Position numbers and translations under genes: made by a program. Of a stretch of DNA of 64,000 bases, positions 21,917-61,980 are shown one piece after another. The notes below the pieces were generated by a model, which was not told the origin of the DNA, did no database searches, and saw nothing but the letters and a program-made list of their open reading frames with translations. How positions within the stretch are numbered: position 1 is the stretch's first letter; every line of letters starts with the position of its first letter. Source of the DNA: Ceratodon purpureus (Eukaryota; Streptophyta; Bryopsida; Pseudoditrichales; Ditrichaceae); the NCBI GenBank assembly GCA_014871385.1, contig CM026426.1:72431756-72495755 (forward strand). The letters are read 5' to 3'.

Positions 21917-22132
21917 GTAGAAGTTGACTTACCAACAGTAGAGAGGGTCTTGTTGTTCTAATTTTATGATTTATAAGGTATGTGATTATGAAATGCACGA
22001 GTCAATGTGTGTAAAGGGATATAAAGCAACATTTAAAATTTAAATATCAGATTATTCAATTACTTTGTAGTCATGCTTTTGCATTACTATTGAAAAAGTG
22101 AAATGAAAAAATTGTAATGTAAACTTCTGACA

Positions 22133-37060: not shown

Positions 37061-37670
37061 GGCACTGGTCTCCTCCGTAGTTCGACCTCTGAAGATCGAA
37101 ACATCTATTGCCTGATTAATACCATGTTCGCTAACGCTTGCAATAGACTTGTAAGAGCGCTCAAACCCTAATGCAAGACTGGAAACAACGCTAAAACCAG
37201 AGAGTGATGGAAGGAAACTCCCGATTGCAAAGGATATTGCAATTTCGCGTTTGGAAAGATCTGGTGCATCCGTCGTGGCTGGCATACCAGCACCGGCGAA
37301 GCGGAGTTGGACTCCATCTTCCAAATAGCAAGTGTTCCGTAAAGACAGAAGTGACGGTGAGAGCATGACAACAACAACTACACACCACATTCCTGTAAGA
37401 GACAACAATATATGCTAAATTCGGGAATAAGCAGAAATAGATTATGTCAATCGTGGCGTTTACAATGACACACCAAAAGCGGTAGAAACATTGTAAGTGC
37501 GTTCGCGCCTGCTTGGCCGCAACGCTGTGACGACGCAATGCGGAGCATAGAGTCCCTTCCCGCGGTTATGGGTACGGTGTGGATATTGATGTTTATATCT
37601 CCGTGGGCGCTCGTTGCAATGACTGTCTTGGTAGTGGCGGGTATGGGGTTGTTACCAGGGTTGTGCCCTT
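37061..37670. other. CACTA 5' flank, no gene seen
   Basis: Region upstream of TNP2, up to the pogo-like element. No convincing frame; the CACTA terminus was not located. Confidence 0.35.
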
Positions 37671-38156
37671 AAGGTAGAGGTACCGAAAACCACCAGCACT
37701 CCCATAGGCGTGCCGTAGCCCTCCCCAAAAGCGCCGTTGGGGTATGAGAATTCCGTAATATCTGGATCTGGGGGCCGGATTTAGGTTCAAACTGTTTTGG
37801 TGTACTGCGTCATGCAAAATCAATCTTCGTGGCGGCTGAAACGGTTTTAGGTTGTTAAATATATTGTAAAGTGCAGTTGTTAGTTAGTGGAATTAAGAAA
37901 GAAGTGAGAGTGGTTTCCCCATTTGGGCATCACATTGTGTGGTTGGTGTGATAACAAATAAATACATGCTGAGTCATGCTTTCATAATCCAATCTGGGCA
38001 AGGTCTACACTCTTGCATGATAGAATTTCATACATTCCGTGACACTTATAATAAGCACTTCTCACACTACAATGATCAACCAAGTCGATATTTCATTCAG
38101 GAGGGAGGGGTGCTCTGTACTAGCAAGTGTGAGAGGAGTGATCTAGCTCAAAGTAG

Positions 38157-41100
38157 TTGGCGGAGTTCAAGCGCAGCATCATGTCAGCTGTTGATTTAGC
38201 GACTAATGATGGTTTCTGCTACGTAGAAGATGACTATGACCATAATGAGTGTGAGCTGGGTATAGAGGATGATGGTGAGTCCGGTGACAGATCAATTAGC
38301 TCTGATGAAGAAGGCCGGTGCACCAGCCAGCCAGTGGACTATAGTTGCCTACAGCTGGAGCAAAATCGACGCAGTCGATGGGCTAGGAGAGAGAGCCGCG
38401 GTGTACAAGCTGCTGCTGTAGCCTTTGTCGATCAGCGACCGGCAGCAAGCGGCCTACAACGACCGACAGCAAGACGGGTAGGAGGAAGTGCAATCGGTCG
38501 TGAACGTGCTTGGCGGCAAGGGACTCGAGGCTCTGTAGCCGGCATCAGACTCTTCACGAATCCTGCTCCTTGCGGTAGAAGCGATCTGCAGCAGTCTCAA
38601 CCAAGTGAGGCAGGTCAATTGCGAAGGAGTTCACAAAATCCAAGACGAAACAGAGAACGAAAGAATGGTAACTGGACAAACGATCAACTGAGACGGGCTA
38701 TGGCAGCTGTAGACAACGGGAAATCCATGAAGAAAGCAGCTGCAGAGAACAATATTCCTTACTCGTCGTTCCGTGATCACTGCTATGGCAAGACCAGAAG
38801 TTGAAGGCGTGGAGTTGAAGGAGTTCTCACAGTTGAAGAAGAGAAGAAGCTAGTTGATTACCTTGTTAAGATGTGCGATGTGGGTTTTGGATTATCTCCT
38901 AGTGCTCTCAAAATGAAAGTTTATGAGATTACTAAGAGCAGATGGACCCCTTTTCGAGACGGGATACCTGGTGGAGGTTGGATGAGATGGTTCAGGCATC
39001 GTCACCCAGAACTCACTATTAGAGCTGCTCAAGGTTTGGAGAGCGCAAGAGCACGTGCACTCTGCCCGGAGAATGTGCAAACGTTGTATGAAAACTTGGA
39101 ACGCCTCTTCACATTGCACAATTACCCACCCGAGCGCATCTGGAACTGCGACGAGTCCGGCGCCCAAGCAAGTAATGTACAAGTTTTGATTTCAGCTGAT
39201 GAGTTTGAGTTGTAATTTTCTTCGCAGCCTCTGAGTCTACATTCTGTTCACAGTCAAGGGTAGACAATGAGAAAGCAGTGACTTTTCATACTATGAATAC
39301 AGTGCAAGTGAAGTGATGATATCAACTATTTTGTTTTTAAGAAAGAAATTACTTGGATTGGAGCCCAGGTTCATGACCTGGGGTCCCTAGGGTCATGACC
39401 CGGGGTCCCTGGTTTATGACATGGGATGAGGTACGGCCTGGAACATAGAGGTTCGGCCTGGAACTGAGTCCTTAACTACCTGACATAGAGGTTCGGCCTG
39501 GAACAAAATGAAAAAATGCTCGATGATCAAGGATCACGATGCGTGTGTCTTAATGTCTCTTGAACCTGTGCAAAAGGAACTGATTACAGGTAGGTTAGCT
39601 CTGGTGAGTTCATGGCACTGAGTCGGAGCTGTGCTCATCAGATAATGGTGATTTCAGTCACAAATCTGCGCTGAATTGATAGTCTGCTGGGGAGAATAAG
39701 ATGGGTCTATACGGTATTGTACATAAGGTTGAAAAAAAATGGGTACAAGCACTATGCTTACTTCATGATGGTGAGTCCTCGGGTCAGAGCAATGTACTCC
39801 CCAGTTGAGGCGAGGTTGTTCTCGGATAATTAAGCATGACTATTACAAGTGTTGTGCTGAATGCCGAATAGTCTTTCAGTGGTATCCAATAGAAAGCTCC
39901 TGTGTTTAAATGCTTAGCTCCCCCCTGTAGGTCAGAAAATGACATATCACAGTTAGTAGATGACAGTAATATTCAGCTAACATTTTCATAACGACTAACA
40001 TGTGGCTGTTTTGATGTAGGTAAATGCGGTGGCGGATGGTTATAGCGAAGACTGGTGCGAAACGGGTGCAATCGATAGTTCCAAACCAAAGGGAGTGGCT
40101 GTCTGTATTGGTATGTGTAAACGCAGCAGGTCAGTCAATACCATCTTTCTACATTTTTAGAGGAAGACGGTTTAGGCAAAATTACATCATACACTGTGAA
40201 CAAGGTGCAACCATGGCAATGCAACCGCGAGCATGGATGACGTCTTACCTTTTTAGTGCATGGATTTCTCATTTCGTAGCATCAATTAGACGTCAGGGTC
40301 TTATTTCACCACAGCAACGCCATCTGTTAATCCTGGATGGGCATAACTCACACGTTACTTTAGAAGTGGCGCGACTAGCTAAGAATGTTGGACTTGATCT
40401 AATCAGCCTCCCATCTCACACTTCGCATGCACTACAACCCCTAGACGTTTCTGTATTTAAACCATTCAAACAATATTTCAGAGAGTATAGGGACTACTGG
40501 ACTTCACGTAACATAGACCAATCGGCCACAAAGGAAGTCCTGGCCCAGTAGGTATCACTTGGCTTGAGAAAAGCTCTATCAGTTTGCAATATCTATAGTG
40601 GATTTCGGCGCACAGGAATTTATCCTCTCAACAATACAGCAGTCGACGGGCAATTCTCACCATCAGAAGCTTACCGGCTGGGTTCTCATGAGGCACCGAC
40701 TTCAGCTAGGGAAGGTATGATCGGTGAACGAAGGCAACATGGAGAGGATCACCAACAGTTGGGAGCCGACCAGGAGCAACCACTTGGCGATGATCACGGA
40801 GACGAGGGCGATGACGGACTGGTCGGGCACAACGGACCGCGAGCACAAGGGATGACAGACCGCGAGCCTAGAGGACCTTGCGGGCTTGGGGCACTGTACG
40901 CACCACCTTCCAGCGAGGAAGACATCGCCGCCGACTTGAGCCGCGAGCCCGAATCAGGTACCGAGCACTACTTTGTCTCTGCAGACGCGTCGGAGGAGGC
41001 TCCTGAGAGCGACGTAGCGCCTTTGGACCTTGAAGCTGATCCAGCGCCGGAGTCGATAACACAATTCTTGCAACTGCCGAGGTTCACGCCCAACGCTACT

Positions 41101-42033
41101 TCACGCCGTAGGGATCCAGTCGTCGATTTTGCAAAATCTGTTATACTAACTAGCTCTGAATATGAAGAGGCTGCAGCTAAAATCATCACTGCAAGAGAAG
41201 ATGCTGCGAAGGAAAAAGAGCAGCAAAGACAACACCGTGAAGAATCTAAGAGACAAAAATTGCAGGAGAAAGAAGAGGCGATGGCACGAAGAGCAGCCAT
41301 ACGAGAGGAGGCCCAGCGTATGAAGAATCAGAAGGCAGCAGAGAGGGAAGAAGCAGCGAGGGTCAAAGCGGAACGAGCGTACCAGTTGGCAATGGCGCGA
41401 GCGGAGAAGGCCGCTCAGAGATCCAGTAGAGGCGAGGACCTCCGAATTCCTCGTGGAAGCAGGGCGTCGGAGACTAAGGAGATACGTCAAAACGCAGAGG
41501 AAGGCTTTCTTGGTCGGGGCTGCTGGAGAGGAGAGTCCACCTCTGAGGGAGCCGCATTCCTCTACCAAAACCTGAACCAAAACCTCCAAACTTCGTCGTC
41601 ATTCGTACCACTCGTACACGCCACTCCTTACCACCCTCCTCTCCCTGCAGAAGCCCCCCATGCACAGTTCTTCTTCACGTCGCCTTCGAGCGGCCTCTCC
41701 CCCCTCTCTCAATTTGACGTAAGTCCACACTCTACGAGGCCCAGTACACAAAACGCAAACCGATTTCTTGTCCCCGCAATTCCACGACAACAGCGCAACA
41801 CATTCTTCCAACGAGTAGGAGTTCAAACGGAGGAGGGCCCTGCAACGAGCCGTTGCGCAGCGCGACAAAGTCTCGCGGGAGAGGCTTGCGACGGAGACCG
41901 CGGGCTACGGGCGCTGGGCGAGCGGGTCACAGACGACCCACGCAAGACACTCCGCCCCACAACTGGTCGGGACAGGGCAACTGCGAGAGCGGGAGTCGAA
42001 CCATCAGGGAGCGTGGGCATCTCACCATGGTAA
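38157..42033 (+). pseudogene. Pogo-like DDD transposase gene with long coiled-coil tail
   Basis: The start at 38157 (MAEFKRSIMSAVDL) or 38181 is uncertain. The N-terminus is acidic, followed by an HTH psq-type domain (about 38.66-38.80 kb; WTNDQLRRAMAAVDNGKSMK, AAAENNIPYSSFRDH). A CENP-B-type second helix-turn-helix follows (GGGWMRWFRHRHPELTIR), then the first catalytic Asp (WNCDESGAQA, 39150). An intron of 874 bp (39172-40045, GT...TATAG) keeps the frame. Next come LLILDGHNSH (Asp at about 40336) and LQPLDVSVFKPFK (Asp about 40444), separated by 35 residues as in pogo. The family signature SGFRRTGIYPLN lies at 40600. A TGA (about 38802) and a TAG (about 40549) interrupt the frame. Beyond the catalytic part is a tail of more than 450 residues with a Lys/Glu/Ala coiled coil (41.16-41.42 kb), much longer than usual for the family. 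Confidence 0.8.
39366..39503. repeat. Short tandem repeats in the pogo intron
   Basis: Two copies of a GGTTCATGACCTGGGGTCCCT-like unit are followed by three copies of GAGGTTCGGCCTGGAAC with variable spacers. Confidence 0.6.
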
Positions 42034-42459
42034 CGGCACTGTGCACACCGCCCATGTGGGGTTGCGAGGGAGTTCATGCCACTTTCCACCTTAGCCTGAC
42101 ACGGTGCATTGAAATAGATAACGCAGAATATGGTCCACATGCGACTTAGAGTTGCACTAATAGAGTGCTCGTTTATTCAGTCCAGGCTGAAACGGTTTTA
42201 TGTATCTCGAGGCACAAGCAATAGGCTGAACCCAGTTTGGACTTCCCTGAACCTACAGGTCGGATATGGGTCTGCAAGTAGTTTTGCCTTTGAAAATGTG
42301 TATTTATTTCAGTAATGGGAGTTAAATTTTGAAAAAAATTGCATCATGTAAGAAACCTTCTTTCGTACATCTGAAAATTACAAACTGTAAATAACCATCC
42401 CCAAAAAAGCTCCTGAAGCTTAAGTTGGTGGTTTTCGGTACCTCTACCTTACTTACAAC

Positions 42460-47089: not shown

Positions 47090-47963
47090 TTAATCCTCCT
47101 CCGACGATGCACCCAAATCGGCATCAAATGTTGCCAATTCCTCTGGAGGGTCATCGGCGAGTACGTCTGTCCTGCGTATAACTCTTCCAGAATTCGATGG
47201 TTCGATTGGATCTTCGGACACAATGTCAGGCACCCGCAGAGCTGAGAAATCAGAGTCCCTGCCGTGACAGAATAACAAACCTTGTCCAACCTCTGCGGAA
47301 CTCGCTTCAACTCTCTTTCCCCTAGGCTCAGTTCGAACCACCACCTTCCAACCCGGAGATTCAACACAGTCACAGAAGAAGACCTGTTCCACCTGCTGGG
47401 GAAAAGCAAAAGATTCCCTACCGAAAGGAATAGTTCTTGTAAAATTAGCGATGGTAAAGCCCCATTGGTCTTTCTTCACTGTAGCGTTGGTGCCCCTGTA
47501 ATTTGCCCTGACCCAGGTACCGATGAGAACCACTTGTCGAAACACAGTATAGTCTAACTCTATTATCTCTTCTAAGTTCCCAATGTATTCCACAGGTGCA
47601 ACGACGGGGTTCCTGTCTCTCATGCCGAATCGGCATTCTCTGATAAAAGTAGCCGCGATACCTGAATCCATTGACTTGAGAGGGACCTCTGCAGACCTAA
47701 CTCTGTAATGAAAGCCGTAACCATACATGCTTCGGTATCGAGTGGCAACGGTGGAGGGAAAACACGAGACTGCTTCAACTTCGGGGTCAACATTGAGGCC
47801 CTCTACTTTTTCCCGCATTACACGAGCACGTAACCAGTCTCTAAATGGAGGCAGATTGGACAGTTCAGGGGGGTAATTGCGAGCGTGTCCGCCATCGCGT
47901 CGTGGATGCCGCGACCTCCACCTTTGTCTATCGAGATTGCGCTGTTCGACCTCAGGCTGGTAG
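47090..47963 (-). CDS. CACTA TNP2 transposase gene 2, C-terminal segment (DUF4216), split by the hAT insertion
   Basis: Leftward from the hAT edge the frame reads YQPEVEQRNLDRQRWRSR, LSNLPPFRDWLRARVMR and a DUF4216-type domain: VSCFPSTVATRYRSMYGYGF, GNLEEIIELDYTVFRQVVLI, WVRANYRGTNATVKKDQWGF, and QVEQVFFCDCVESPGWKVVV. It ends in an acidic tail (FDADLGASSEED) at a TAA, 47090-47092. The matching upstream part of the same exon lies 13 kb away at 60939-61018. The codon phase is identical on the two sides of the insertion (TAC of the target duplication is in frame in both), so the gene was open before the hAT landed. As it stands, the gene cannot make the full protein. Confidence 0.8.
47956..47963. 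repeat. Target-site duplication of the hAT element, left copy (GCTGGTAG)
   Basis: Eight bases identical to 60939-60946. An 8-bp duplication is the hallmark of the hAT superfamily. Confidence 0.95.
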
Positions 47964-48191
47964 CAGGGTTGTCTATTCGGACGGACATGGGCAAAATTTC
48001 CGGACATAGACGGACGGACGGACGGACGGACCGGTCGGTCCGCAGACACAATCGGACATTGAGGGGAGGAGGAAAATTACTAAGTTAATTTTTTTTTTTT
48101 ACAACTTACCTATAGGGGAAACATATTGATGACATGGACAACAAACGATGACGGGGAATTCCACATACGCAAAAGGGGTGCCAGCATGTGT

Positions 48192-48386
48192 AGGGGGCGA
48201 GAGCGGGTACAGGGGGGGGGCGCGAGCGGGTTCAGGGGGGCGCGAGCGGGTTCAGGGGGGGGCGCGAGCGGGTTCAAGGGGGGGCGCGAGCGGGTTCAAG
48301 GGGGGGCGCGAGCGGGTTCAAGGGGGGGCGCGAGCGGGTTCAGGGGGAATGGGCGCGAGCGGGTTCAGGGGGGGCGCGAGCGGGGT
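48192..48386. repeat. G-rich array 1 (left subterminal), about nine GGGGGGCGCGAGCGGG units
   Basis: Units of about 20-24 bases with core GGGGGGCGCGAGCGGG and spacer TTCA or TTCAA. G-rich on the top strand. It starts about 230 bp inside the left end of the hAT element. Confidence 0.9.
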
Positions 48387-48637
48387 AGATAGTAAATTTT
48401 TGACAATGCAAAACAACCTAACATTTTCATCAGAATAATATATTCGGGCTAAGCGCAATGACAAAAGTGTAAATTCAGCATAGAAAAAATGAGATACTCG
48501 TGAGCCAAAATACATGGACTTTGCAAAGTTGTATACATTTATGAAAGTAAAAGCATTTCATTACCAATTCAAACCAAAACATTACAAAAACTGTAGTATA
48601 TGAAAACTAGTCACTTAGTACTAAGTTGTAACTATTC

Positions 48638-51016
48638 CTATTCATCTGCATCTACTCCTGCTGTGCCACTTGGTCCCGCTCCATCGTCCAGCGTCAAGCT
48701 GCGCCTGGCTCTCGTCCGTGTCCGCCGGAATGGGCCATCACCTTCACTGAGAGAACGCAAAATTTGCGAGTTCCTCAATTCTCTCAATGTACGCAATGTC
48801 TGTGGAGAGTGTTCCTCCAGAAGAAAGTCAACAGCCTCATGTTTGAAAATTAACTTCCACTCCGAAAGAGACATTTGGACTGCATCACGGGCGGTCAAAG
48901 ACATGAATTGACCTTCGAGGTCTGTAACCAATTCCCCGTCCTTGTTCCATATGAGGCCTTTTGGGTGATTACCAAGTTGGAACTTCCTATGCTTCAGATC
49001 CTAGTATCCATTCAAAGTCTGATAGAAGAAATTTCGTTTCCCTTGGTCCTCCTTCTTTGATCCAATTATCTTCTTTGCCACCCTCACAATCTGATTGGGG
49101 TCATCCTCCCACCCCAACTCGTCACTTACATTGCTCTTGAAGACCGAGTGAGTCTGGGCCCGCCAACTCCAAATCAAATCTTCCCCCCACATGTTGCGGT
49201 ACTGTTCACCTGGTGTGTTTTCGGGATTTCTCTCATGGCTTGGTGGCATGTATGGAGTGAGTCCAAAAACCTCGTACAAGCGTTCATGGAACGGGGATTT
49301 GCACACCGGGCAAAATCTCCTTACCAAAAAAATGTTAATTAAACACATAGGATGGAACATGTGGGTACATGATCCAACTGCCCATCCACCCTCAGGACCA
49401 AATGAATTCATACACACAGGGCATTCTTTTGAACCATCCATCACCCACGGTTGAGGATTTGGCCAAAGCTTTCTGCTATTAACTCCTTCCTTCATTTGAA
49501 GATCATGGCACGAAGTTGCGTTTACATCGAAATTCAACTTGGCCCAATCTATGAGTTCAGGATTCGATTCTTGCTTTGCCATGGTATCTGGATACATATC
49601 ATCTGCGTTAGTCCATGAAGTGAGGCCAAAATTCCTTCGTCTGTTGTGTTGCAAGTACGATTCGTCGATCTTCTTGAACTCTAATGCAATTTGGCGACCG
49701 CTATCAACGCTGAGAATGGTTGCCACTTTCCACTCGTAGTATGCTTTAGCAAACTTAGAAACAAGGAGCCGCAAATCATTATTGGCTCTCTTCAATGTCT
49801 CCACTTCTCCCGTTAGAGCATCGGGTGGAAATGACAAGGAATCTTGACTTAATGGTCCATCGATGTCCACATAGGGTCGCGGGTATGGGGCTGGTGGAGG
49901 CAATATCACTCCAACTCGTCGTCGTTTTGCTGGAGTGGAAATATTCTCCAGCACACCGGCCGTTGCAACATCAACCGTGTTGTTGATGTAAGATTCATCC
50001 ACCAACATTGGATCTTGAACTACAGGTATATCATTGGCTTGAGAAGACTGAGGTCTTTCTCGTTCTTGCAATTGATTGCGCAAATCTGATATTACTGCAT
50101 CTTTTGCTGCTGATTCCAATCGTAGTTTTCGGATGGTCTCTTGTAACTCTGCAATGAAGCCATCCTTTTCTATTAGCTGTAATTGTAACTCCCCGACCTC
50201 CTCGGTCTGGTTAGACTGGTCATTTCTAACTAGAACCGGCATGCCAAGAACCATCGTAGGTTCAGTTCCGACCACGTCCAAATTAGCTGCCATATTTGGA
50301 TCGTTTTCCACGAAGATGGTGTTCGCATCGTCATGAGGTTCTATGACGTCCGCTGGATGGTTCATTGGAGGCTCTACAGCCATATTTGCTGGTGCTACAA
50401 TTCTACGTGGTGGACGTTCTCCACGACGACCATCGGAATCAGAATCTGGTTCAGACTCTGCTGTATCAGGCTCCCGTACTTGTGTTTTTTCCTTCATTTT
50501 TTTCCCCAGGCCACCATCTGCGTATTTCCTTTGTTTGGGAATGTCACGCTCTGTCGGCGCCCTAACACTCGGCGTGGATTTGATGGTGGACCAATCCACC
50601 ACTTTGTGAAGCACCACCTCAGCATACACCATTCTGCAAATGAACAATGGTACTTCATTGCGTTCAACACATCGTTGCTTGTATAGATGCTGGTAAACTT
50701 GTATAGAACGTTCAACAAACTCCGCATTCAAGCAATAATAGAGGTTAGCCTTGTCTGAGATCCTGTGTTTTCTGTGCCGATCATGTGGAAATATTTTTGT
50801 GATGTGGCACCACTCAATGAATTCTTCGCATGTGGAATATTTCCACGGTTCCGGCTCATCTTGCCAACCTCTAAATGCCAACTTTGTGGGGTTGTTCAGC
50901 ACATGAAGCCGCTTCTTCATCTTCTTGCCACCACGCTTCCGTTCACGATCTCTGATTTTCTTCTTTTCGGCCTTGGTGAGTGGCCTTTCCTCCGCCGGAT
51001 CTGGGTTTCCCTCCAT
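48638..51016 (-). CDS. hAT cargo gene: coiled-coil protein with RING-H2 finger (putative E3 ubiquitin ligase)
   Basis: Start at 51016 (MEGNPDPAEERPLTKAEKKK). Basic head to about residue 36, then a helical domain (about 45-150; WKYSTCEEFIEWCHITKIFP, LFICRMVYAEVVLHKVVDWS). After an acidic linker comes a coiled coil at about 275-315 (ELQLQLIEKDGFIAELQETI). The RING-H2 lies at about 530-575: ECPVC, SCTHMFHPMC and FCPVC in the order C2-C-H-H-C-C2. In known RING proteins this binds zinc and recruits E2 enzymes; the substrate is unknown. The frame meets TAG at 49001-49003 (codon 672), but the same frame goes on for 120 more codons (DLKHRKFQLGNHPKGLIWNK ... GAGPSGTAGVDADE) to 48638. The stop could be a mutation, readthrough, or the true end. 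TATA box and G-rich array 2 lie upstream at 51.35-51.63 kb. Confidence 0.75.
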
Positions 51017-51135
51017 CGTGGTGTACTGGTAAAGTTTTCTGTGTTAAAAAACACACCAACTCCTCAAAACTTCCCCCAATTGATTTTAAAATTTTCCTCC
51101 GTGGTTGATTATGGTATTGTAACTATACTTTGTGG

Positions 51136-51300
51136 CCCACCCAAGTATTCAGCAATAAGCCACCATGAGGTAGTTTAGGGCCCGAATTCCCGGATGAGCG
51201 TACAAAATAAGGCTGAAAGCTGGTACGTGGCGTTGTCAAAATACTGTAGACCCCACCCAAGTACTCAGCAATAAGCCACCATGAGGTAGTTCAAGGCCTG
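51136..51300. repeat. Direct repeat in the RING gene leader (two copies of about 45 bp)
   Basis: CACCCAAGTATTCAGCAATA (about 51138) and CACCCAAGTACTCAGCAATA (about 51250) each continue through AGCCACCATGAGGTAGTT. Spacing is about 113 bp. Lies between the TATA box and the start codon of the RING gene. Confidence 0.8.
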
Positions 51301-51349
51301 AGTGCCAAGGTGGAGCTAAAAAAAGTGGGGGGGGGAGGGCGCCCCCTTC

Positions 51350-51361
51350 ACTTATATAGTC
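51350..51361 (-). promoter_or_regulatory. TATA box of the RING cargo gene
   Basis: The minus strand reads GACTATATAAGTG here, about 340 bases upstream of the start codon and directly next to G-rich array 2, which lies just upstream of it on this strand. Confidence 0.7.
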
Positions 51362-51630
51362 GGGGGGGGGGGGGCGCGAGCGGGGTCGGGGGGGCGCGAG
51401 CGGCTGAGGGGGGGCGCGAGCGGGATTAAGGGGGGGCGCGCGCGGGTTTAGGGGGGGGGCGCGAACGGGTCTCGGGGGGGGGGGGCGCGAGCGAGGCAGG
51501 GGGCGCGAGCGGGTATGGGGGGGCGCGAGCGGGTATATGGGGGGGCGCGAGCGGGTTCAGGGGGAGGTGCGCAAGCGGGTATGGGGGGGCGCGAGCGGGA
51601 TCAAGGGGGGGCGCGAGAGGGTCCCCCCCT
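51362..51630. repeat. G-rich array 2 (RING gene promoter)
   Basis: About ten units with core GGGGGGCGCGAGCGGG and mixed spacers (TATGG, TTCA, ATTAA, GTCGG). It ends in a GTCCCCCCCTTAA boundary. Confidence 0.9.
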
Positions 51631-51999
51631 TAAAACAAACTCTCATTTCCTTAGGAGTACCATTGAAGAAGGTTGGAAGACAATAATAAAAACAAATGCA
51701 ATGGATTTTTTCACCATTTCTCTCTAAAATAAAATTAAAAATTAAAAATTAAAATGGGATATGAAAATAAGGAATACTGATTTGAATAATTTGGGGATGA
51801 GAAATCAAATTATAGAAAAACAATCATGACTATAATAAGGGACTCGGGATAAAAAGGGATGAATAACATGGGATGAAAGAAGTTATCAAGATGAATAAAT
51901 GTCATGGTGGTTAGAAACTGAGTTATCCCATAACGGAATATTGATCTAATGCACCATGAATAATATAATGTTGACTACAAGGAAATTAGTGTATTAATA

Positions 52000-53893
52000 T
52001 TAGAATAAAATAAAAAGAATAGCATGGTATGGAAGAGAGTTCGATTAGGGTTTAAAAAAATAAAAAATATAATGCATTGAACATATGGATCCTACAATGC
52101 TCTAACATATAATTAAAAATATAAAGAATCATAAAGAAGGGCTCGATGCAATTGGTTTGGCATATAAACGGAATAAAATTAAATCAATAGCATGGAGTGG
52201 AAGAGATAAAGGGAATAAAATAAAAAGAATAGCATGGTGTGAAAGAGAGTTCGATTAGGGTTTAAAAAAATAAAAAATATAATGCATTGAACATATGGAT
52301 CCTACAATGCTCTAACATATAATTAAAAATATAAAGAATCATAAAGAAGGGCTCGATGCAATTGGTTTGGCATATAAACGGAATAAAATTAAATCAATAG
52401 CATGGAGTGGAAGAGATAAAGGGAATAAAATAAAAAGAATAGCATGGTGTGAAAGAGAGTTCGATTAGAGTTTAAAAAAATAAAAAATATAATGCATTGA
52501 ACATATGGATCCTACAATGCTCTAACATATAATTAAAAATATAAAGAATCATAAAGAAGGGCTCGATGCAATTGGTTTGGCATATAAACGGAAAAAATAA
52601 AATCAATAGCATGGAGTGGAAGAGATAAAGGGAATAAAATAAAAAGAATAGCATGGTGTGGAAGAGAGTTCGATTAGAGTTTAAAAAAATAAAAAATATA
52701 ATGCATTGAACATATGGATCCTACAATGCTCTAACATATAATTAAAAATATAAAGAATCATAAAGAAGGGCTCGATGCAATTGGTTTGGCATGTAAACGG
52801 AATAAAATTAAATCAATAGCATGGAGTGGAAGAGATAAAGGGATTAAAATAAAAAGAATAGCATGGTGTGGAAGAGAGTTCGATTAGAGTTTAAAAAAAT
52901 AAAAAATATAATGCATTGTTTATACGGATCCTACAATGCTCTAACATATAATAAAAAAAAAAAAAAAAATCATAAAGAAGGGCTCGATGCAATTGGTTTG
53001 GCTGATAAACGGAATAAAATTAAATCAATAGCATGGAGTGGAAGAGATAAAAGGAATAAAATAAAAAGAATAGCATGGTGTGGAAATACGTAGGATTACA
53101 GTTTAATAAAATAAAAAATTATAATGCATTGTACATACGGATCCTACAATGCTCTAACATATAATTAAAAATATAAAGAATCATAAAGAAGGGCTCGATG
53201 CAATTGGTTTGGCATATAAACGGAAAAAATAAAATCAATAGCATGGAGTGGAAGAGATAAAGGGAATAAAATAAAAAGAATAGCATGGTGTGGAAGAGAG
53301 TTCGATTAGAGTTTAAAAAAATAAAAAATATAATGCATTGAACATATGGATCCTACAATGCTCTAACATATAATTAAAAATATAAAGAATCATAAAGAAG
53401 GGCTCGATGCAATTGGTTTGGCATATAAACGGAATAAAATTAAATCAATAGCATGGAGTGGAAGAGATAAAGGGATTAAAATAAAAAGAATAGCATGGTG
53501 TGGAAGAGAGTTCGATTAGAGTTTAAAAAAATAAAAAATATAATGCATTGTTTATACGGATCCTACAATGCTCTAACATATAATAAAAAAAAAAAAAAAA
53601 ATCATAAAGAAGGGCTCGATGCAATTGGTTTGGCTGATAAACGGAATAAAATTAAATCAATAGCATGGAGTGGAAGAGATAAAAGGAATAAAATAAAAAG
53701 AATAGCATGGTGTGGAAATACGTAGGATTACAGTTTAATAAAATAAAAAATTATAATGCATTGTACATACGGATCTTACAATGCTCTAACATATTATAAA
53801 GAATCATAAATAAGGGATCGACGCAATTGGTTTGGAAATGGACGTTTTACAATTAAATCAATAGCATGGAGTGGAAGAGAGGCTAGAGCTGCA
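52000..53893. repeat. 210-bp AT-rich satellite, about nine units with trimeric higher-order structure
   Basis: The landmark TCGATTAG recurs at 52041, 52251, 52461, 52670, 52880, 53302 and 53512, a spacing of 209-211 where adjacent. Units at about 53091 and 53723 carry a variant (GGAAATACGTAGGATTACAG). Variants repeat every third unit: the block starting at 52863 is copied almost exactly at 53495, 632 bp later. Each unit includes GGATCCTACAATGCTCTAAC and GGGCTCGATGCAATTGGTTT. The last unit (53780-53893) is shortened. Identical 76-codon frames at 52863 and 53495 are by-products of the satellite. Confidence 0.92.
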
Positions 53894-53899
53894 TGAGAG

Positions 53900-54037
53900 G
53901 TTGTGCAAGTATAAAATCCCAATACTTTGTATTTTCTAATTTGTTTTATTTTATTTTTTTCTCTTAGAAAGTAGTGTAGAGATTTCACAATTTCAGAAGA
54001 GAAATAGAAAATAAAAAATGAGATCGAAAACAAATGG
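53900..54037. other. Short AT-rich link between the satellite and array 3
   Basis: No structure seen beyond T- and A-rich tracts. Confidence 0.4.
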
Positions 54038-54250
54038 AAGGGGGGGGGGGGCGCGAGCGTGTCTGAGGGGGCGCGAGCGGGTTGGGGGGGGCGCGGACGG
54101 GTATGGGCGCGAGCGGGTACAGGGGCGCGAGCGGGTGGGGGGGCGCGAGCGGGTACGGGGGGGGCGCGAACGGGTATAGGGGGGGGGGGCGCGAGCGGGT
54201 ACAGGGGGGCGCGAGCGGGTTCAGGGGGGGGGGCGCGAGCGGGTCCGTGG
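54038..54250. repeat. G-rich array 3 (kinase gene promoter)
   Basis: About ten units of GGGGGGCGCGAGCGGG with spacers such as GTACA, TATGG and TTCA, on the top strand. Confidence 0.9.
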
Positions 54251-54252
54251 GG

Positions 54253-54264
54253 ACTATATAAGGT
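54253..54264 (+). promoter_or_regulatory. TATA box of the kinase cargo gene
   Basis: GACTATATAAGG follows the last unit of array 3 within about 10 bases and lies about 155 bases before the start codon at 54417. A CT-rich leader (CTCTCGCCCCCCTCACTCCT) follows. Confidence 0.75.
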
Positions 54265-54416
54265 GGGGAGAAGCTCTCGCCCCCCTCACTCCTTCCCACT
54301 GCGGCTCCTTGTCCTGACGTGTGAAAACACGCCTTGCTTGGAACTGCTTATGTGGGAAGTCTTCATTGGGGCGGGGGGGGAAGTTGTTGATTTTTTTTTC
54401 AGGGATTTACTTTGCG

Positions 54417-55997
54417 ATGTCTTGTAGACAAGGCTCCGGCAAGCGGCCTATGTATGTGGACTTGGATGCTCCAGATGCGGTGGACCATATGAGTTGCGTA
54501 ACACCTCATGGTTCTAGTGGTTCTACTCCTTCATCTAGCTCGAAGGGTAAAAAGAAGAAGAGTATACCAGCGCACGAGAAGGATGACGGTTATCCACCAT
54601 TGGAGTATACGCATTTCATCAGGAAGGTGGCCGTCGAGTACTACAAGGCCCGTACCATACGAATGTTGAAGGCAATGTACCTTGATCACGGAGAGAATGG
54701 TATCTACAACCTCCAACGTGATTTGGAAAGGGAATTTTGGAGCGCATTGGAAGGATCAGAGATGTACATGGATTGCAAGACGAAGTATTTTCACAGCCCG
54801 AAGTGGTTGACACAACAAGTGAGTAGTGCTACGACAAATGTCATTCATGTGTTTGAATCACATGTCAAGAAACCACAAGGCGAAGAATGGAGCAACCAAG
54901 ACAAAGTGTTTATTCAAAAACTGACAACGGTTCAGGAGGCATGTTTGAGATGTTCTAAGGGGAAAACAAAGATTATGCCTTGGAATGAGCAAGCATTGAA
55001 CTCAGCATTGGAAGCACACATGTATGGTGCATTGATATGGATTCCGGTTACGGCCAAGGTTGTGCCATTATCTGGCTTCAATGCCGAGGGGGGGTATGGC
55101 AAAGTGCGAAAAGTGCGAATAGCCAATATGAAGAAAATTCCAATTCACATAGAATTTGCGGGAAAACTTTCCAAGGCTAAAACCGAAGTGAAGAAGCGAG
55201 AGGAACGGGCGATTGAGGCCACGGTTAACCCCGTAGAGCATCCGGGTGTGATAAAATTTTGGGCCATTCACGCTAAGACCATGGAAGCTTATACCCTGTG
55301 GTGGAATGGAGATTGCCTCCGCAACTTCCTCAAGATAAATGAGAAGGCATCCGAGGCAATAGATTACAAAGAAATTTTGAAGTCGAGGGATATGCCCATG
55401 GAAGAGTGCCAAAGAATTGTTGCCTACCGAAAGAACCGGGGAATGTTGGCGTGGAGTCTCATCTACGTTATGGACATAGTCCATAAGGCTGAAATCCTCC
55501 ACAACGACTTAACGCCATCCAACATTCTACTCCACTTTCCACCTCATGACAAGAATAAAGTATATATTGGTGTGTGCGATTGGGGTGTGGCAAGCAGAGT
55601 CATTGAGAACAAGGCCTCCCCTTATGGTGTGATGGACCCCGATGAACTTGTACAAGTAAAGGAGAGGAGGGTAGGAGTTGCACCGGAGTTGTTCTTTTTA
55701 TATGGCAAAAAAGATGATGAGGAACGGAATTTGGAGCGCATGAAGAGGATGCATCCATGTACGACGCTATCTGATGCATTTTCGGTAGGCCATTTGGCAA
55801 AGAAGATATGGAGAGAAGAAGATTGCCCAGAACTCTTCAAGGATTCAATCTCAAAGATTGTATTCTCATCAAAGTTGGATAGCTTGCTTAACGAAGATCC
55901 TACAAAGAGGCTTTCACTTGCAAAAGTTGTGAATGATTTGATGAGCCCCCCTTACAACTTCCAAGCTCCCAATGGTTGTTTTAGATACACATTGTAG
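54417..55997 (+). CDS. hAT cargo gene: protein kinase-like protein
   Basis: I choose ATG 54417 (MSCRQGSGKRPMYVDLDAPD), 526 residues. The N-terminal 200 residues are a helical domain of unknown family (LEYTHFIRKVAVEYYKARTI, FWSALEGSEMYMDCKTKYF). The kinase fold follows: a glycine loop with GGYGKV (about 223), a candidate ATP-site Lys in FAGKLSK (about 243), a helix with Glu residues, a catalytic loop HNDLTPSN (about 360-367; Asp and Asn kept, the usual Lys is Thr), DWG in place of DFG (about 387), APE (about 421), SDAFSVG for DxWSxG, and a late Arg (KRLS). Length and motifs fit an active or recently active kinase, specificity unknown. It lies between array 3 with its TATA box and array 4, on the strand of the transposase. 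Plant hATs are not known to need a kinase, so I infer cargo modifying the transposase or host proteins. Confidence 0.8.
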   Translation: MSCRQGSGKRPMYVDLDAPDAVDHMSCVTPHGSSGSTPSSSSKGKKKKSIPAHEKDDGYPPLEYTHFIRKVAVEYYKARTIRMLKAMYLDHGENGIYNLQRDLEREFWSALEGSEMYMDCKTKYFHSPKWLTQQVSSATTNVIHVFESHVKKPQGEEWSNQDKVFIQKLTTVQEACLRCSKGKTKIMPWNEQALNSALEAHMYGALIWIPVTAKVVPLSGFNAEGGYGKVRKVRIANMKKIPIHIEFAGKLSKAKTEVKKREERAIEATVNPVEHPGVIKFWAIHAKTMEAYTLWWNGDCLRNFLKINEKASEAIDYKEILKSRDMPMEECQRIVAYRKNRGMLAWSLIYVMDIVHKAEILHNDLTPSNILLHFPPHDKNKVYIGVCDWGVASRVIENKASPYGVMDPDELVQVKERRVGVAPELFFLYGKKDDEERNLERMKRMHPCTTLSDAFSVGHLAKKIWREEDCPELFKDSISKIVFSSKLDSLLNEDPTKRLSLAKVVNDLMSPPYNFQAPNGCFRYTL

Positions 55998-56214
55998 TTC
56001 CATAGTGAATTACGTTTGGAACATTTTGATTGCCTATGTGGCCTTCTTTGCACATTTCGAATATTTTAATAAATCGTTTTTTCGGCGTATACATGCCTTG
56101 GTGGAACATGAAATGGTATTGTTGGTTTTGTAATGGAATGAAAAATTGTTTTTAAAAAAAAAATGAAAAAACTGTATGGCCCATTCACCGGGACTGCCCC
56201 TCGTACAAGGGTGC

Positions 56215-56607
56215 CTCCCCCTGAACCCGCTCGCGCCCCCCCCTCTGGAAGCTCGCGCCCCTCCCTTCCAGAAGCTCGCGCCCCCCCTCTGAGAAGCTCG
56301 CGCCCCCCTTTGCAGTAGGTTGCGCCCCCCCCCTTGAAAAAGCTCGCGCCCCCCCTTGGAGAAGCTCGCGCCCCCCCCCTTGGAGAAGCTCGCGCCCCCC
56401 CCCCTCGGAGAAGCTCGCGCCCCCCCTGTTGGAGAAGCTCGCGCCCCCCTGGAGAAGCTCGCGCCCCCCCCTGGAGAAGCTCGCGCCCCCCCCTGGAAAA
56501 GCTCGCGCCCCCCCCTGGAAAGAGAAGCTCGCGCCCCCCCACCTGGGGAAACTCGCGCCCCCTGCACACGGTCGCGCCCCCCCGCCTGGAGAAACTCGCG
56601 CCCCCCC
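56215..56607. repeat. Array 4 (transposase promoter), C-rich on the top strand
   Basis: About eighteen units of GCTCGCGCCCCCCC with spacer TGGAGAA or TGGAAAA, i.e. the same core as arrays 1-3 in inverse orientation but with its own homogenised spacer. Long frames across it are by-products. Confidence 0.9.
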
Positions 56608-56610
56608 TCA

Positions 56611-56622
56611 CAAGTATAAATG
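56611..56622 (+). promoter_or_regulatory. TATA box of the hAT transposase gene
   Basis: CAAGTATAAATG lies about 8 bases after the last unit of array 4 and about 200 bases before the start codon. Same array-TATA order as at the other two genes. Confidence 0.7.
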
Positions 56623-56818
56623 CCACCAACTTAGCCCAAGCCCAATATCATTTGAAATCATGGCCTCTAGTCCCGGAACTCCTTGTGGGCTCCTTGCTTG
56701 AGACTATGTGCATCACATTGGCCTGTGGTTGATGTCTACACATACCATTTTTTTCTCACATGTGTCATACTAACACTTGCAGACAGGAGATCATTGTACT
56801 TTTTCAGAGACACGGAGA

Positions 56819-59800
56819 ATGGCAGGTCAACAGCGTCAGTCGACGGCTGAGTGGGCTCCGTGGTGGACGTTCATTGATAAGGACCATGTGGAATGTGTGT
56901 GGTGCAATTTCACCTTTCGTTATAAACGACAAAGAGCTTTCAAGCACTATGGATGGGGTGAAGGTTCAAGCAAGAGTCATTGTACCAAGGCCCCCGCCGC
57001 CGTATTTAGGCGCTTTGCCAATTGTGGTAATGTAATACCAAAAAGAATGACACATGCGGAGATATACGGCACTGATGGTGGTGATGGCGAGGCACACTTG
57101 GCACACTTGGCACCATGTTCTAGCCAGTCTATGCCTGCTGAGCAATCTACGGAAGTGCCTCAAAGAACGGAGGAGGTCCAAGAGGAGAGGATTTCCCAAG
57201 TTCAACCGTCTCAGTCAACTCCGCCTATAAGCAGAGGCGATTCATGTACACCAAGATCTATGCGGCAACAAAGTTTTACCGAGGCCTATCAGATTGGGAT
57301 GCGCAATGAATTGGATGAGAAATGGGCGTCCTATTTTTATTAAGCGAATGTGCCTTTCAATGTGGTTAGACATCCATCTTTTATCGCTGCTGTGGAGGCA
57401 ACATCGAAAGCGGGTTTTGTCTACCGTCCACCAGCATACAACGCAATGCGAACCAAGCACATCCAGCCAACAAAGCAGCTTCTCAAGTTGAGAATAGAGG
57501 AGAAAACGAAGCAGTGTATTAGCTTGTACGGGGCAACTATTTGCTCGGATGGATGGGACAACGTTGTTCATCGGCCGTTGATGAATGTCATGCTTGTGTG
57601 TCCAGCAGGAGATATATTCCTGGGTTCTATTGATACAACGGGGTACAAGAAATCAAAGGCATACATAGCTGGGAAATTGAAAGAGTACATCAAAGAAGTT
57701 GGACCGCAGAATGTGGTACAGATTTGCTCCGACAATGCTAGTGCGATGTTGGGAGCCATGGACCAGGTGGTTGAAGCTTATCCTCACATTTACAAGCAAG
57801 GTTGTGCAGCTCACATCATGGACCTCTTACTAGAAGATTGGGGGAAGGAAGCAACCTTCAAAGAGCTGATTGCCTTGGCAAAACGCATACCAAATTTTAT
57901 ACGTCGCCGTCATGTCACCATGGCTTTGTTTCGCCAATTCAGCCCGAAGTTGTCTCTGTTGTTACCAGCGGAGACAAGATTTGGATGCTCGTACTTGATG
58001 ATTGTTCGATTGTTTGAACTGAGGGAGGCACTAATCCAGGTGGTAGCCAGTCCGAAATGGGACGAATATGTGGGTACTTTATTCAATCGGTCAAACGGGT
58101 ATCGAGCTCACACCTTAGCATGTCAAGTACGGAGTACCATTCTCGATGAGACATTTTGGTTACGTTGTGAGAATCTTGTGCATGTTATGAAGCCGGCTGT
58201 TGTGACCTTGAAGACATTTGATGGACAAACACCGGCAATGGGGAGGGCATGGTTGGCCATGAATAATTTGAAGAAGTATGTGTTCCGTCTACGGGGTGAT
58301 CCTTTTTTCCTAGACCCCGCTATAGCAGATCGCTTTGAGAAACATTTTACGAAGAGATGGAAGATGATGTTGACAGATCTCCATTACGCAGGCGCCATTT
58401 TGAATCCCTACATTTTCCCGGAGAGCCACGAGCTATTGACTAACAGTGCTGCGAAGCGTGCACTCCTGCAAGTGCTAATTCATTTGAGTGAGTGCCTTAA
58501 ACTGGACCACGATACTGTGTTGTTTGAGCTAACACAGTTTGAGGAACGCACCGGTCCATTCAGCCCTTTGGAGGCCCCAAACATCAGACAGACTAAGATG
58601 CTACCTCATCAATGGTGGCAGCGGGTTGGGGGCGATGCGTTACCGTTGATAGCAAAGCGCATCCTTTCGTTAACATGCTCGGCATCATCATGTGAGCGAA
58701 ATTGGAGCATGTATTCCTTTGTTCACAGTAAGGTTCGCAACCGATTGGCCGTGAAGAAGGCAGAGGACTTGGTGTACATTTACACGAACAGTAAGCTCCT
58801 TCGAGAACGACGTGGAGCGGATCCTGTTCTTTGGTACGAGAACCAACCGTTCTCCGAAGACTCGGATGAAGAAGTGCCAGCCATGTACGATGAAGACGAA
58901 TGTGATGATGATGGAGATGAAGGATTCCACGACGGACTTGAAGTTAATGAAGGCGATGGTGATGACGGTGGAGTTCATTACACTCCTGCTACTATGGATG
59001 ATGAGTATCCAGAGTTACCCGTGGACAATGGTGATGGTGACATGCCACGCACTGAACCCGTTAACCAGCCGAATGGAGTTTTTGACTGGGCAGGATTTGA
59101 TGAAGAGGCAGCTACTTCGCCTCACCACGTTGTCAATGAAATACAAGCTAGAGGCGAGGTCGCATACGATCGGGCAGACGATGATATTGACGATGAATTT
59201 GAAGTCGAAATGACTCAGCATCAAAGCGACGATGGTGGCAATAATGATGACATTTACCCCGTTCGTAGCGTTGCGAACAATGACAATGAAGAAGGGGGTA
59301 ACAACATGGGAGAGCAAATTCCAATTCCAGAAGACGTTGAGGGAGGAGAAGAAGTTGAACAACTCCAGGCCACTCTGCCAGTAAATGTTGAGGAAACAAT
59401 CAGGTCTGGAGGTTTGGATGAAAGCCCTCCAAGAAATGAACAATCAGAGACAGTCAGAAATGGACAAGAAGATGAAATTCCTATTGGCCAATTGTTTCAA
59501 ACACCCCTGCCCCAGAGTACACCTTCAATCGGAGCAGTACTTGCAGGGTTGGGTCGACCCCCCCCACCTCGTTCAAACACTTCTACTGGGCATGGTTCAT
59601 TAACTCCAACACCGAATACAAGCATTCCACTCACTTCTTCTGGACGAAGTCTACCAGCTGGACCTTCTACGACGCGTCATGGAGTGATACGGTCACGGAA
59701 AGGTCCAACAAACGTTCGCCCTTTTTTTTCAGGATATACTGTTGGAACTACCCCGTCTGTACCTGTGGCTTTGGGTAAACGTAGATTACCCGTAATGAAT

Positions 59801-60103
59801 GTGGACGGAATCACCGATAAGACCAAAAGACGGAAGATCAAAAGAATTGTGACCACAGTGGTGGATGGTACAGTTGACCACGAAATTCGCAACATTCATT
59901 CCACGGTGGAGGAGTATGTGCCTAATCAGGGGGGAGATGGAGATGACGAGGGGTCGAAATCCTCAGAAGGATATTACTCATCAGAAGATAGCCGTGAAGA
60001 AGCACCTGATGATGAAGACATTGTTGTAAGAGTACCATTGGGTAAGCCCGGTACTCGAAGGAATCCAGAGCGGCGCACCGCCAAAAAAAACAAAAAAAAG
60101 TGA
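56819..60103 (+). CDS. hAT transposase (BED finger, DUF659, hAT dimerisation domain, acidic tail)
   Basis: Start at 56819 (MAGQQRQSTAEWAPWWTFID). BED-type zinc finger at about residues 14-58 (VECVWCNFTF, FKHYGWGEGSSKSHC). A Ser/Gln-rich linker follows. The frame has one TAA at 57341-57343 (codon 175) between KWASYFY and ANVPFNVVRHPSF, then stays open for 917 codons. DUF659-type core: TICSDGWDN, QICSDNASAM and QGCAAHIMDLLLEDW supply the Asp residues. The hAT C-terminal domain (about 58.61-58.79 kb) has WWQRVGGDALPLIAKRILSL, SSCERNWS with the catalytic-type Glu, and HSKVRNRLAVKKAEDLVYIY. A tail of about 430 acidic then basic residues ends KKNKKK at TGA, longer than usual. It would cut and join the element at its CAGGGTTGT ends. 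Whether the TAA is a disabling change or is bypassed (readthrough, or splicing around it) cannot be told here. Confidence 0.9.
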
Positions 60104-60191
60104 TACATTTATTAGCATATTACATATAGAAGGTATATAGAGAAAGTATAATATATATGTCTCCAAAATAATTTAAAAAAAACACAAAAAA

Positions 60192-60195
<4 letters not shown>

Positions 60196-60271
<76 letters not shown>
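60196..60271. repeat. (AT)n microsatellite
   Basis: About 38 uninterrupted AT dinucleotides, 90 bases downstream of the transposase stop codon. Confidence 0.95.
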
Positions 60272-60272
<1 letters not shown>

Positions 60273-60443
60273 AAATTTTATACGTAGATACTTATATGTT
60301 AACCTTAGTCAATGTCCATAAAACATTAGCTAAGGCTACTGAATGTAATTTTGTTTCGACATGAATTGAAACTTCTCTCATTTATGTCACTATGAAAAAA
60401 TCAGTAGTGTCTTAATTTCCTTCAATGGTTGATTCTTGTTCCC

Positions 60444-60734
60444 AGCTCGCGCCCCCCCTTCGCAGGCGCTCGCGCCCTCCCTTCGCAGGCGCTCGCGCCC
60501 CCACCCCAAACCCCTTGCTCGCGCCCCCCTGCAATCGCAGGCGCTCGCGCCCCCCCCGCCATCGAAGGCGCTCGCGCCCCCCCACCATCAAAGGCGCTCG
60601 CGCCCCCCCCCCCTCGCAGGCGCCCGCGCCCCTCACAGTCGCTCGCGCCCCCTCGCTCGCGCCCCCCTTCCCAAGACGCTCGCGCCCCCCCTCTCACGTG
60701 CTCGCGCCCCCCTCACTCAAGGCGTTGGCGCCCT
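60444..60734. repeat. Array 5 (right subterminal), C-rich on the top strand
   Basis: About thirteen units of GCTCGCGCCCCCCC with spacers CGCAGGC and ATCAAAGG. It ends about 200 bp before the right end of the hAT element. Its orientation is inverse to array 1, so the two subterminal arrays form a large inverted pair. Confidence 0.9.
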
Positions 60735-60938
60735 TCCTCTTAGCCACGTCATCCCCGGAGTCAACAATTTTTGGTGACATGTCAGACGCGTGGCATCCTA
60801 GGTGGCCAAGGTAACTCCCATTTCACCATTTGGGTGGTCAACCGTAAGTCCTGGTCAAACGGACCTCCCCTGACCCCTAACGGACGGACGAGCGGACCGG
60901 ACGGACGGACCGGTCCTTTTGTCCCATGAACAACCCTG

Positions 60939-60946
60939 GCTGGTAG
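60939..60946. repeat. Target-site duplication of the hAT element, right copy (GCTGGTAG)
   Basis: Identical to 47956-47963. Confidence 0.95.
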
Positions 60947-61980
60947 GCTCTGTATAAATCACCAACATCAGGAAAGTTGAGAAAGCGAATTAGCCGTGCC
61001 ATCGGATAGATGAGGCCTCTGATAGGGGCCATGGGTCACAAGCAAAATAATAGAGATAAGTATTGGAGAAGTAGGTCTTACTCTCTGTAGGGTTCCATTA
61101 TGTCGACATTGTCAATGACGAAGTCATGGATATCTTCGAGTAGAGCCTGATCGAGGATTCGCACTTTCCCTTTGCCCTCCAGAAAAATATCATTCATTAC
61201 GGGATCTTCCTCACTCTGCCACACGCGTTTGACAGTGGACTGTCCTGCTCCTAAGTACTCAGAAGCGAAGCCACAGGACTCCTCAAGTTCATATCGTTTC
61301 GCCATACACCCCTCAGGCTTCGCGTGATTTCTCACGTACCCCTTCAAAGTCTTGTAGTATCTTTCGAATGGGTACATCCACCGGACGTGCACGGGACCAC
61401 ATATGAAAATCTCCTCTACTAAGTGAATGCACAGATGAATCATGATATCAAAAAACGATGGAGGTAGTTGCTTTTCCAGCAAACACAGAGTCTCAGCACA
61501 CTCCTCAAAAAGTGCGTCCTGTTCGGCGATATCAACCTTCTTTGCACATATCTTTTTGAACAGGCGGCTCACCCGAATGACGGCAGCAGTCATATGATCG
61601 CATCCACAGTTTCTCATGCACAGCGGCATCAGGTCTTGTAAAAGTACGTGATAATCGTGGGACTTAAGACCCATTAGTTTACAAGAGCTGATCTTTCCAT
61701 GCAGAAAACTGGAATAGTGGGAAGGAAGCTTCATGTTCTTCAAAGTGTCCAGAAAAATTATCCGCTGTTCCTTGGTGAGCACCCAAGGGGCCTCTGGAAT
61801 GAACGCCCGCTGATCCTGCCCGGGTACACTTCGCAACCAGAGGTGTCTGCGGATATTTCTACGCTGGAGATCGAGACGTACATTGGGACCATCCTTTTCC
61901 CCGAACAGTGTACGGAGTAGGTTCTCTGCGACATTTTTCTCCACGTGCATACAGTCCACCAGATTTCTGATTGGGAGTTC
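60939..61980 (-). CDS. CACTA TNP2 transposase gene 2, middle exons (DUF4218)
   Basis: Exon from a TTTTGTAG acceptor at 61980 (ELPIRNLVDCMHVEKNVAEN) to a donor at 61082. It includes LRSVPGQDQRAFIPEAPW, LKSHDYHVLLQDLMPLCMRN, SFFDIMIHLCIHLVEEIFIC and GPVHVRWMYPFERYYKTLKG, the landmarks of DUF4218. A 63-base intron (61081-61019) is followed by an exon reading GLIYPMARLIRFLNF, PDVGDLYRAY into the hAT target site. The phase across the intron is consistent (GA|A GGC), and the frame continues in the piece at 47090-47955. No stop seen in these exons. Confidence 0.88.

Follow-up and report, generated by a model that had tools for sequence, protein, structure and literature searches.

Among the DNA transposons of plants, Ac carries one gene, VANDALs are Mutator-like elements, and Kaki-type Mutator-like elements are said by Hoen et al. 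to carry ULP-like protease genes. In the passages of the published sources compared, here and below, Ac is 4.6 kb long and has AAACGG repeats in its terminal 200 bp that are bound by the Ac transposase, and gene capture is called rare in the hAT superfamily (PMC3260210); the fungal hAT7, which makes 7-bp duplications, carries TET/JBP, and the TET-bearing IS3EU carries TET/JBP together with an alpha-kinase (PMC12730594); and VANC targets a motif, YAGTATTAY, that is tandemly repeated in non-coding stretches of VANDALs (PMC5735166). We analyzed a 64,000-nucleotide stretch of Ceratodon purpureus DNA (assembly GCA_014871385.1, contig CM026426.1, positions 72,431,756 to 72,495,755 of the forward strand; hereafter the window, numbered from its first nucleotide), and found that positions 47964-60938 are a single hAT insertion of 12,975 bp, in which genes for a kinase and a RING-H2 protein accompany the transposase gene and in which five GC-rich arrays, near the two ends and at the three promoters, are all built on a common 12-nt core, GGGGGCGCGAGC. 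We lean, with modest confidence, towards a fairly recent insertion of a large composite hAT that has integrated a kinase and a RING gene as accessory genes; the mechanism through which they would act we infer.

Ends of the element and insertion site

The element has the short terminal inverted repeats (TIRs) of a hAT, CAGGGTTGT at 47964-47972 on the plus strand and ACAACCCTG at 60930-60938 on the minus strand, with nine of nine base pairs matching, and it is bracketed by the perfect 8-bp target-site duplication expected of this superfamily, GCTGGTAG at 47956-47963 and again at 60939-60946. An end-pair scan of the window, in which inverted ends and duplications both had to be exact and 8 bp or longer, the ends could lie up to 30 kb apart and arrays and satellites were masked as starting points, recovered the same duplication; it returned two pairs, 47964-60938 (9-bp ends, 8-bp duplication) and 18651-18792 (8 bp and 8 bp). 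An earlier note on this DNA, made from the letters alone, had described matching ends, a perfect 8-bp duplication and three genes inside the element, and all of these are borne out, the genes by Pfam matches to Pkinase, zf-RING_2 and DUF659 plus Dimer_Tnp_hAT.

CACTA genes with DUF4216 and DUF4218 domains point to a plant or a streptophyte alga as host. The element went into a minus-strand CACTA transposase gene of this kind, between its DUF4218 part (inside the frame 61078-61980) and its DUF4216 part (inside the frame 47090-48076; the DUF4216 match, at 26.2 bits, is below the cut-off of 30.6). When the flanks were joined with one copy of the duplication, about 30 codons were open ahead of the junction and continued into the DUF4216 stretch, which agrees with the rejoined flanks being consecutive parts of one CACTA gene, the 30 open codons being weak evidence by themselves.

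Three genes within the element

The transposase gene (56819-60103, plus strand; ATG picked by eye) encodes a protein with a DUF659 domain (E=5.6e-33, 114.2 bits against a cut-off of 34.7), the dimerization region typical of hATs (Dimer_Tnp_hAT, E=1.2e-06, 28.7 bits against 21.4) and a long acidic C-terminal extension. Its match to the Hermes transposase is colinear and weak, with a whole-sequence E of 0.006 and i-E values of 2 and 19 for the two stretches alone; the search of solved structures listed eight sequences, namely four Hermes chains and four Legionella proteins at E of at least 0.26. In this weak alignment the first Asp (SDGW versus IDLW) and the Glu (CERNW versus SERTF) align and the second Asp (CSDNAS) is shifted, these D, D and E residues being those that we take to be catalytic. 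An in-frame TAA at 57341-57343 splits the protein into parts of 189 and 919 aa that lie in the same frame.

The kinase gene (54417-55997, plus strand; ATG chosen by eye) is an open frame of 526 aa that matches the Pkinase model (E=2.3e-10, 40.7 bits against a cut-off of 31.7), the match being confined to positions 9-153 of the model's 263. Its motifs are GGYGKV, AGK, HNDLTPSN, DWG and APE; GGYGKV, AGK and APE were recognized by eye, whereas HNDLTPSN (HND with the next Asn) and DWG have counterparts in the alignment to PRP4 kinase from a sequence search of solved structures, in which three chains were listed for the element kinase and the best had an E of 1.3e-3. Thus the Lys (that of AGK, by eye), HxD, Asn and DxG residues of the superfamily are all present, and the product is, as judged from its sequence, a divergent member of the protein kinase superfamily. 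A single-sequence structure model of the kinase had a mean pLDDT of 33.2 and was not used. The retention of motifs and an open frame at such a distance from solved kinases is what a long period of selection, apart from ordinary kinases, would be expected to leave.

The RING-H2 gene lies on the minus strand (48638-51016; the ATG at 51016 was picked by eye) and contains a zf-RING_2 domain (E=8.2e-07, 29.6 bits against a cut-off of 27.3) with all eight ligands of the C3H2C3 type, its closest solved relative being RNF24 (E=1.4e-6). The protein is a putative ubiquitin ligase (RING-H2 E3), and like the kinase it retains the expected motif residues; beyond the RING domain it gave only weak matches of the coiled-coil type. 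An in-frame TAG at 49001-49003 divides it into 680 and 120 aa in the same frame, which continues to 48638. The 5' leader of this gene contains, within 51136-51290, two occurrences of a sequence of about 40 bp (CTACCTCATGGTGGCTTATTGCTGA.TACTTGGGTGGG, minus strand).

Over the three frames, about 2,410 codons, we found two stops (none in the kinase, one in the RING gene and one in the transposase) and no evident frameshift, so that the decay of the element is light. With stops in the RING frame and in the transposase frame, which would be intact in an autonomous element, this copy is probably not autonomous. Reassignment of stop codons was set aside without calculation, since the in-frame stops number no more than two, a TAA and a TAG, and TAG also serves as the terminator of the kinase frame.

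Common repeats at the ends and promoters

Tandem Repeats Finder and a count of cores placed the five arrays at 48193-48384 (array 1, subterminal, 8 cores), 51368-51622 (array 2, ahead of the RING promoter, 11 cores), 54047-54245 (array 3, ahead of the kinase promoter, 8 cores), 56229-56607 (array 4, ahead of the transposase promoter, 16 cores) and 60441-60733 (array 5, subterminal, 11 cores). The G-rich strand is the plus strand in arrays 1 to 3 and the minus strand in arrays 4 and 5, which are C-rich on the plus strand, so that the two subterminal ones mirror each other and point inward alike; on the left 229 bp, and on the right 227 bp, separate the outermost core from the end of the element. 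With up to one mismatch allowed, the core occurs 55 times in the element and not once in the other 51,025 bp of the window, and 54 of these 55 cores are inside the arrays, with one stray at 54273. In first-order Markov controls, none was present in five of five versions of the element, and 1, 0 and 0 were present in three versions of the rest of the window. As tandem copies are not independent events, the weight rests on the five separate arrays and not on the 55 cores. The shorter 8-mer GCGCGAGC was found 48 times inside the element and once outside it (at 41395), and, among 557 inverted-repeat pairs within the element, the 25 longest all join array stretches.

A motif scan located a TATA box for each gene: GACTATATAAG, identical in the RING gene (51353-51358, minus strand) and the kinase gene (54255-54260, plus strand), and TATAAAT in the transposase gene (56615-56621, plus strand). 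In all three genes the box is at most about 15 bp from the nearest core, with the array directly upstream. Outside the satellite and AT run described below, which leave roughly 11 kb, the element has 11 TATAWA sites; by an after-the-fact estimate, an array edge would have one of these within 30 bp in about 3% of cases, and three of three did. The spacers vary between arrays and the core is constant, which suggests the look of a putative binding site. The array 4 unit closest to the kinase gene carries the left-half spacer of arrays 1 to 3, GGGTTCA, which points to a single origin of the arrays. The ratio of observed to expected CpG is raised in arrays 1, 2, 3 and 5 (1.21, 1.12, 1.35 and 1.16, respectively).

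A second kind of repeat occupies the tips. Motif counts revealed a cluster of CGGAC on the plus strand at the left end (47978-48057, with GACCGGTC at 48029) and another on the same strand at the right end (60860-60915, with GACCGGTC at 60908). On that strand CGGAC occurs nine times in the first 106 bp, seven times in the last 100 bp, twice elsewhere in the element and 19 times in the remaining window; the corresponding counts of the reverse form, GTCCG, are 1, 0, 5 and 31.

G-run minisatellites can grow through replication slippage, and the arrays might thus be selfish GC-rich minisatellites that expanded in non-coding spacers, next to accessory genes that may be functional and would be regulated otherwise. 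The element also contains a satellite with a 210-bp unit, as well as an AT run, which would suit such a history, but minisatellites of this kind would have had to come to lie ahead of a TATA box in three of three genes and symmetrically at both ends, and to conserve their core while the spacers diverged, and we consider this explanation decidedly unlikely. The 210-bp satellite is AT-rich, has nine copies at 52003-53880 (Tandem Repeats Finder) and separates the RING promoter from the kinase promoter, which diverge there, so that it could be a spacer or a boundary. In a collection of viral contigs, the array unit had one exact match (L001), in a contig of 65% GC and unrepeated over the 170 bp viewed, which we took as chance.

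Integration of the kinase and RING genes

A common core at the ends and at all three promoters, together with the lack of exact nested ends, argues that the kinase and RING genes are integrated parts of the element under shared regulation and not chance passengers. The earlier note had proposed that both genes belong to the element and that element ends around each gene would speak against this; its proposal is supported by the core shared by three genes and both ends and by the TATA box that follows each promoter array, and no exact element ends enclosing single genes were found with arrays and satellite masked. That the two genes have long been resident in the element is the simplest reading of these features.

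Insertion of the two genes within smaller transposons of their own, nested in the hAT, would be a natural event in surroundings that are themselves a nest of transposons (CACTA, copia and pogo-like), and one pair of 9-bp inverted ends with a 5-bp repeat, at 49245-56097, does enclose the kinase gene. This pair, however, begins within the RING gene, and it was the only one that the scan of the element for exact ends gave apart from the outer pair; about 0.3 pairs of this 9-bp and 5-bp type would be expected by chance in 13 kb (an estimate made without a control). The scan covered exact ends, with imperfect ends, Helitrons and retrocopies outside its reach. We regard nested insertion as very improbable.

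The hAT could instead have taken up two host genes, or processed copies of them, by a one-off accident, with no role for either in transposition. The element is known here from one copy, and for maize Ds the capture of gene fragments is on record, as is that of one sequence with an annotation as a complete gene, rare as such events are said to be for hATs (PMC3260210). Against passenger capture, both genes have long open frames and their own array-plus-TATA promoter like that of the transposase, and the kinase (no stop) and RING gene (one stop) are no more decayed than the transposase (one stop). The kinase is also far from solved kinases, against which its divergence was gauged with the host's own kinases outside the comparison, and so is not obviously a fresh copy. 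Passenger capture therefore appears rather unlikely to us.

If the kinase and RING genes are integrated, as we prefer to read the locus, an element-encoded DNA-binding protein may bind both the CGGAC clusters of the tips and the GCGCGAGC arrays. This protein would most likely be the N-terminus of the transposase, perhaps with the kinase or the RING protein as its partner. At the ends, the bound protein would assemble the transposition complex, and at the promoters it would co-regulate the three genes and keep those stretches open. The kinase and RING ligase could then modify the transposase, or host silencing or repair proteins, such that transposition is timed and silencing relieved, and the present copy, with stops in its transposase and RING genes, would depend on intact relatives. 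Repeat binding by an element protein and the action of the enzymes on transposase or silencing factors are suggested by analogy: the scheme leans on the binding of AAACGG repeats by the Ac transposase, on the tandem-repeat targets of VANC, and on the preference for CGG, CGC or GCGC that hAT-derived DNA-binding domains often have (PMC8097297). The earlier note had likewise proposed, as a hypothesis, a cargo-bearing family in which phosphorylation and ubiquitylation would control transposase level, host silencing or cell-cycle timing. In its full form, our scheme would make this hAT lineage a three-gene unit of transposase, private kinase and private ubiquitin ligase, with the same element-specific GC-rich array at promoters and ends, in which one protein couples end recognition, co-expression and local anti-silencing and the enzymes modify the transposase or host silencing factors; this we put forward tentatively, as possible but on balance doubtful. 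It predicts that a protein of the element has GGGGGCGCGAGC as its specific target in DNA.

Several observations weigh against this picture. It rests on a single copy, in which the transposase and RING frames are interrupted. The BED finger at the head of the BED-DUF659-hAT order given in the earlier note stands on inspection by eye only, from a C-x2-C...H...C pattern in the N-terminus, whereas the DUF659 and dimerization parts of that order are confirmed by Pfam; no BED finger was matched by Pfam, or among Protein Data Bank sequences, up to E=10. Pfam does, however, also miss CGGBP1, which derives from a hAT and has an apparent BED finger; some hAT proteins, on the other hand, prefer AT-rich motifs (PMC8097297). 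The CpG ratio of array 4, at the transposase promoter, is 0.78 and thus not raised (0.73 outside the element), and a minisatellite spreading inside the element without function could yield shared arrays. Codon usage correlates between the RING and kinase genes (r=0.88), between the RING gene and the 919-aa part of the transposase (0.89) and between the kinase and that part (0.77). Frames outside the element correlate nearly as well (22118-23263, with r of 0.87 to the RING gene, 0.76 to the kinase and 0.85 to the transposase part; 27525-28559, with 0.80, 0.69 and 0.82, respectively) and the short N-terminal piece of the transposase less well (0.65-0.74), so that codon usage does not discriminate for common residence. 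Searches for relatives in viral contigs gave 1, 2 and 17 pattern matches for the 919-aa transposase part, the kinase and the 680-aa RING part, respectively, and in genome contigs 74 for the transposase part, with none confirmed in these collections, which were not meant to hold plant genomes.

Other features of the window

A pogo-like DNA transposon, by our own reading, occupies 37670-42451; its inverted repeat (TAAGGTAGAGG...) is perfect over 26 bp, and its HTH_psq open reading frame (ORF) lies at 38157-38804. CAGGGTTGT recurs at 37656, but this occurrence, which sits just outside the pogo-like element, was rejected as the end of another copy of the hAT. A second CACTA copy is present at 32415-36473, with DUF4218 in 33618-34295 and Transposase_21 in 35028-36473, both on the minus strand, and next to it is a plus-strand ORF for an integrase of the copia type. 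The cluster of open frames at 20438-23771, in which 20846-21514 and 22118-23263 have no Pfam match up to E=0.01, is possibly another unclassified transposon, and the codon usage of 22118-23263 resembles that of the hAT genes. The stretch 18323-18792 has inverted repeats nested in one another, 14-19 bp long (CCGGAAGGGGCTCTCGG family), as well as the 8-bp pair and 8-bp duplication at 18651-18792. A 2.1-kb minisatellite of TCCCTC and CGCGGTCA blocks extends over 11073-13198, and its long overlapping frames are probably by-products of the repeats. No Rfam family matched in the window at gathering scores.

Comparison with known systems

The statement of the earlier note that no described hAT combines kinase and RING activities is uncontradicted: in the literature matches listed, from a search with Repbase and most subscription journals outside it and as far as the passages of those sources go, no hAT with both a kinase and a RING gene is described, although accessory genes in a hAT and an alpha-kinase in a transposon are separately in print. 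In the text of a review on gene capture by plant transposons (PMC13317346), as far as it was available to a word search, the whole words hAT, kinase, RING and ubiquitin are absent. A kinase and a ubiquitin ligase kept under transposase-like promoters would, if the reading is true, show that helper proteins evolve in plant hATs as well, and the element would offer a simple system for asking whether transposons escape silencing or set the level of their transposase via post-translational modification.

The fungal hAT7 and IS3EU resemble the present element in being DNA transposons with accessory enzyme genes. In hAT7, however, the accessory enzyme is a dioxygenase, a kinase or RING ligase not being mentioned in the passages compared (PMC12730594), and, unlike the alpha-kinase of IS3EU, the kinase described here matches the classical Pkinase model. 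Kaki is likewise a plant transposon with a gene of the ubiquitin/SUMO pathway, but it is reportedly Mutator-like, carries a protease instead of a RING ligase and is not known to have a kinase. Like the Arabidopsis VANDAL21 with its anti-silencing protein VANC, the element has several genes and a short motif tandemly repeated in non-coding sequence, which in VANDAL21 lies upstream of and inside genes; the likeness is one of repeat layout only, as the motif is YAGTATTAY in VANDAL21 and GGGGGCGCGAGC here (PMC5735166), and the VANC domains DUF1985 and DUF287 were not among the Pfam matches of the element's frames. With Ac/Ds and other plant hATs it shares the 8-bp duplication, short TIRs, the hAT dimerization region and short repeats near both ends, but, in contrast to the 4.6-kb Ac, it has a length of 13 kb, three genes, two kinds of end repeats and a copy of the array repeat at each promoter as well. 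The five GGGGGCGCGAGC arrays, common to both ends and all three promoters, are what is new here.

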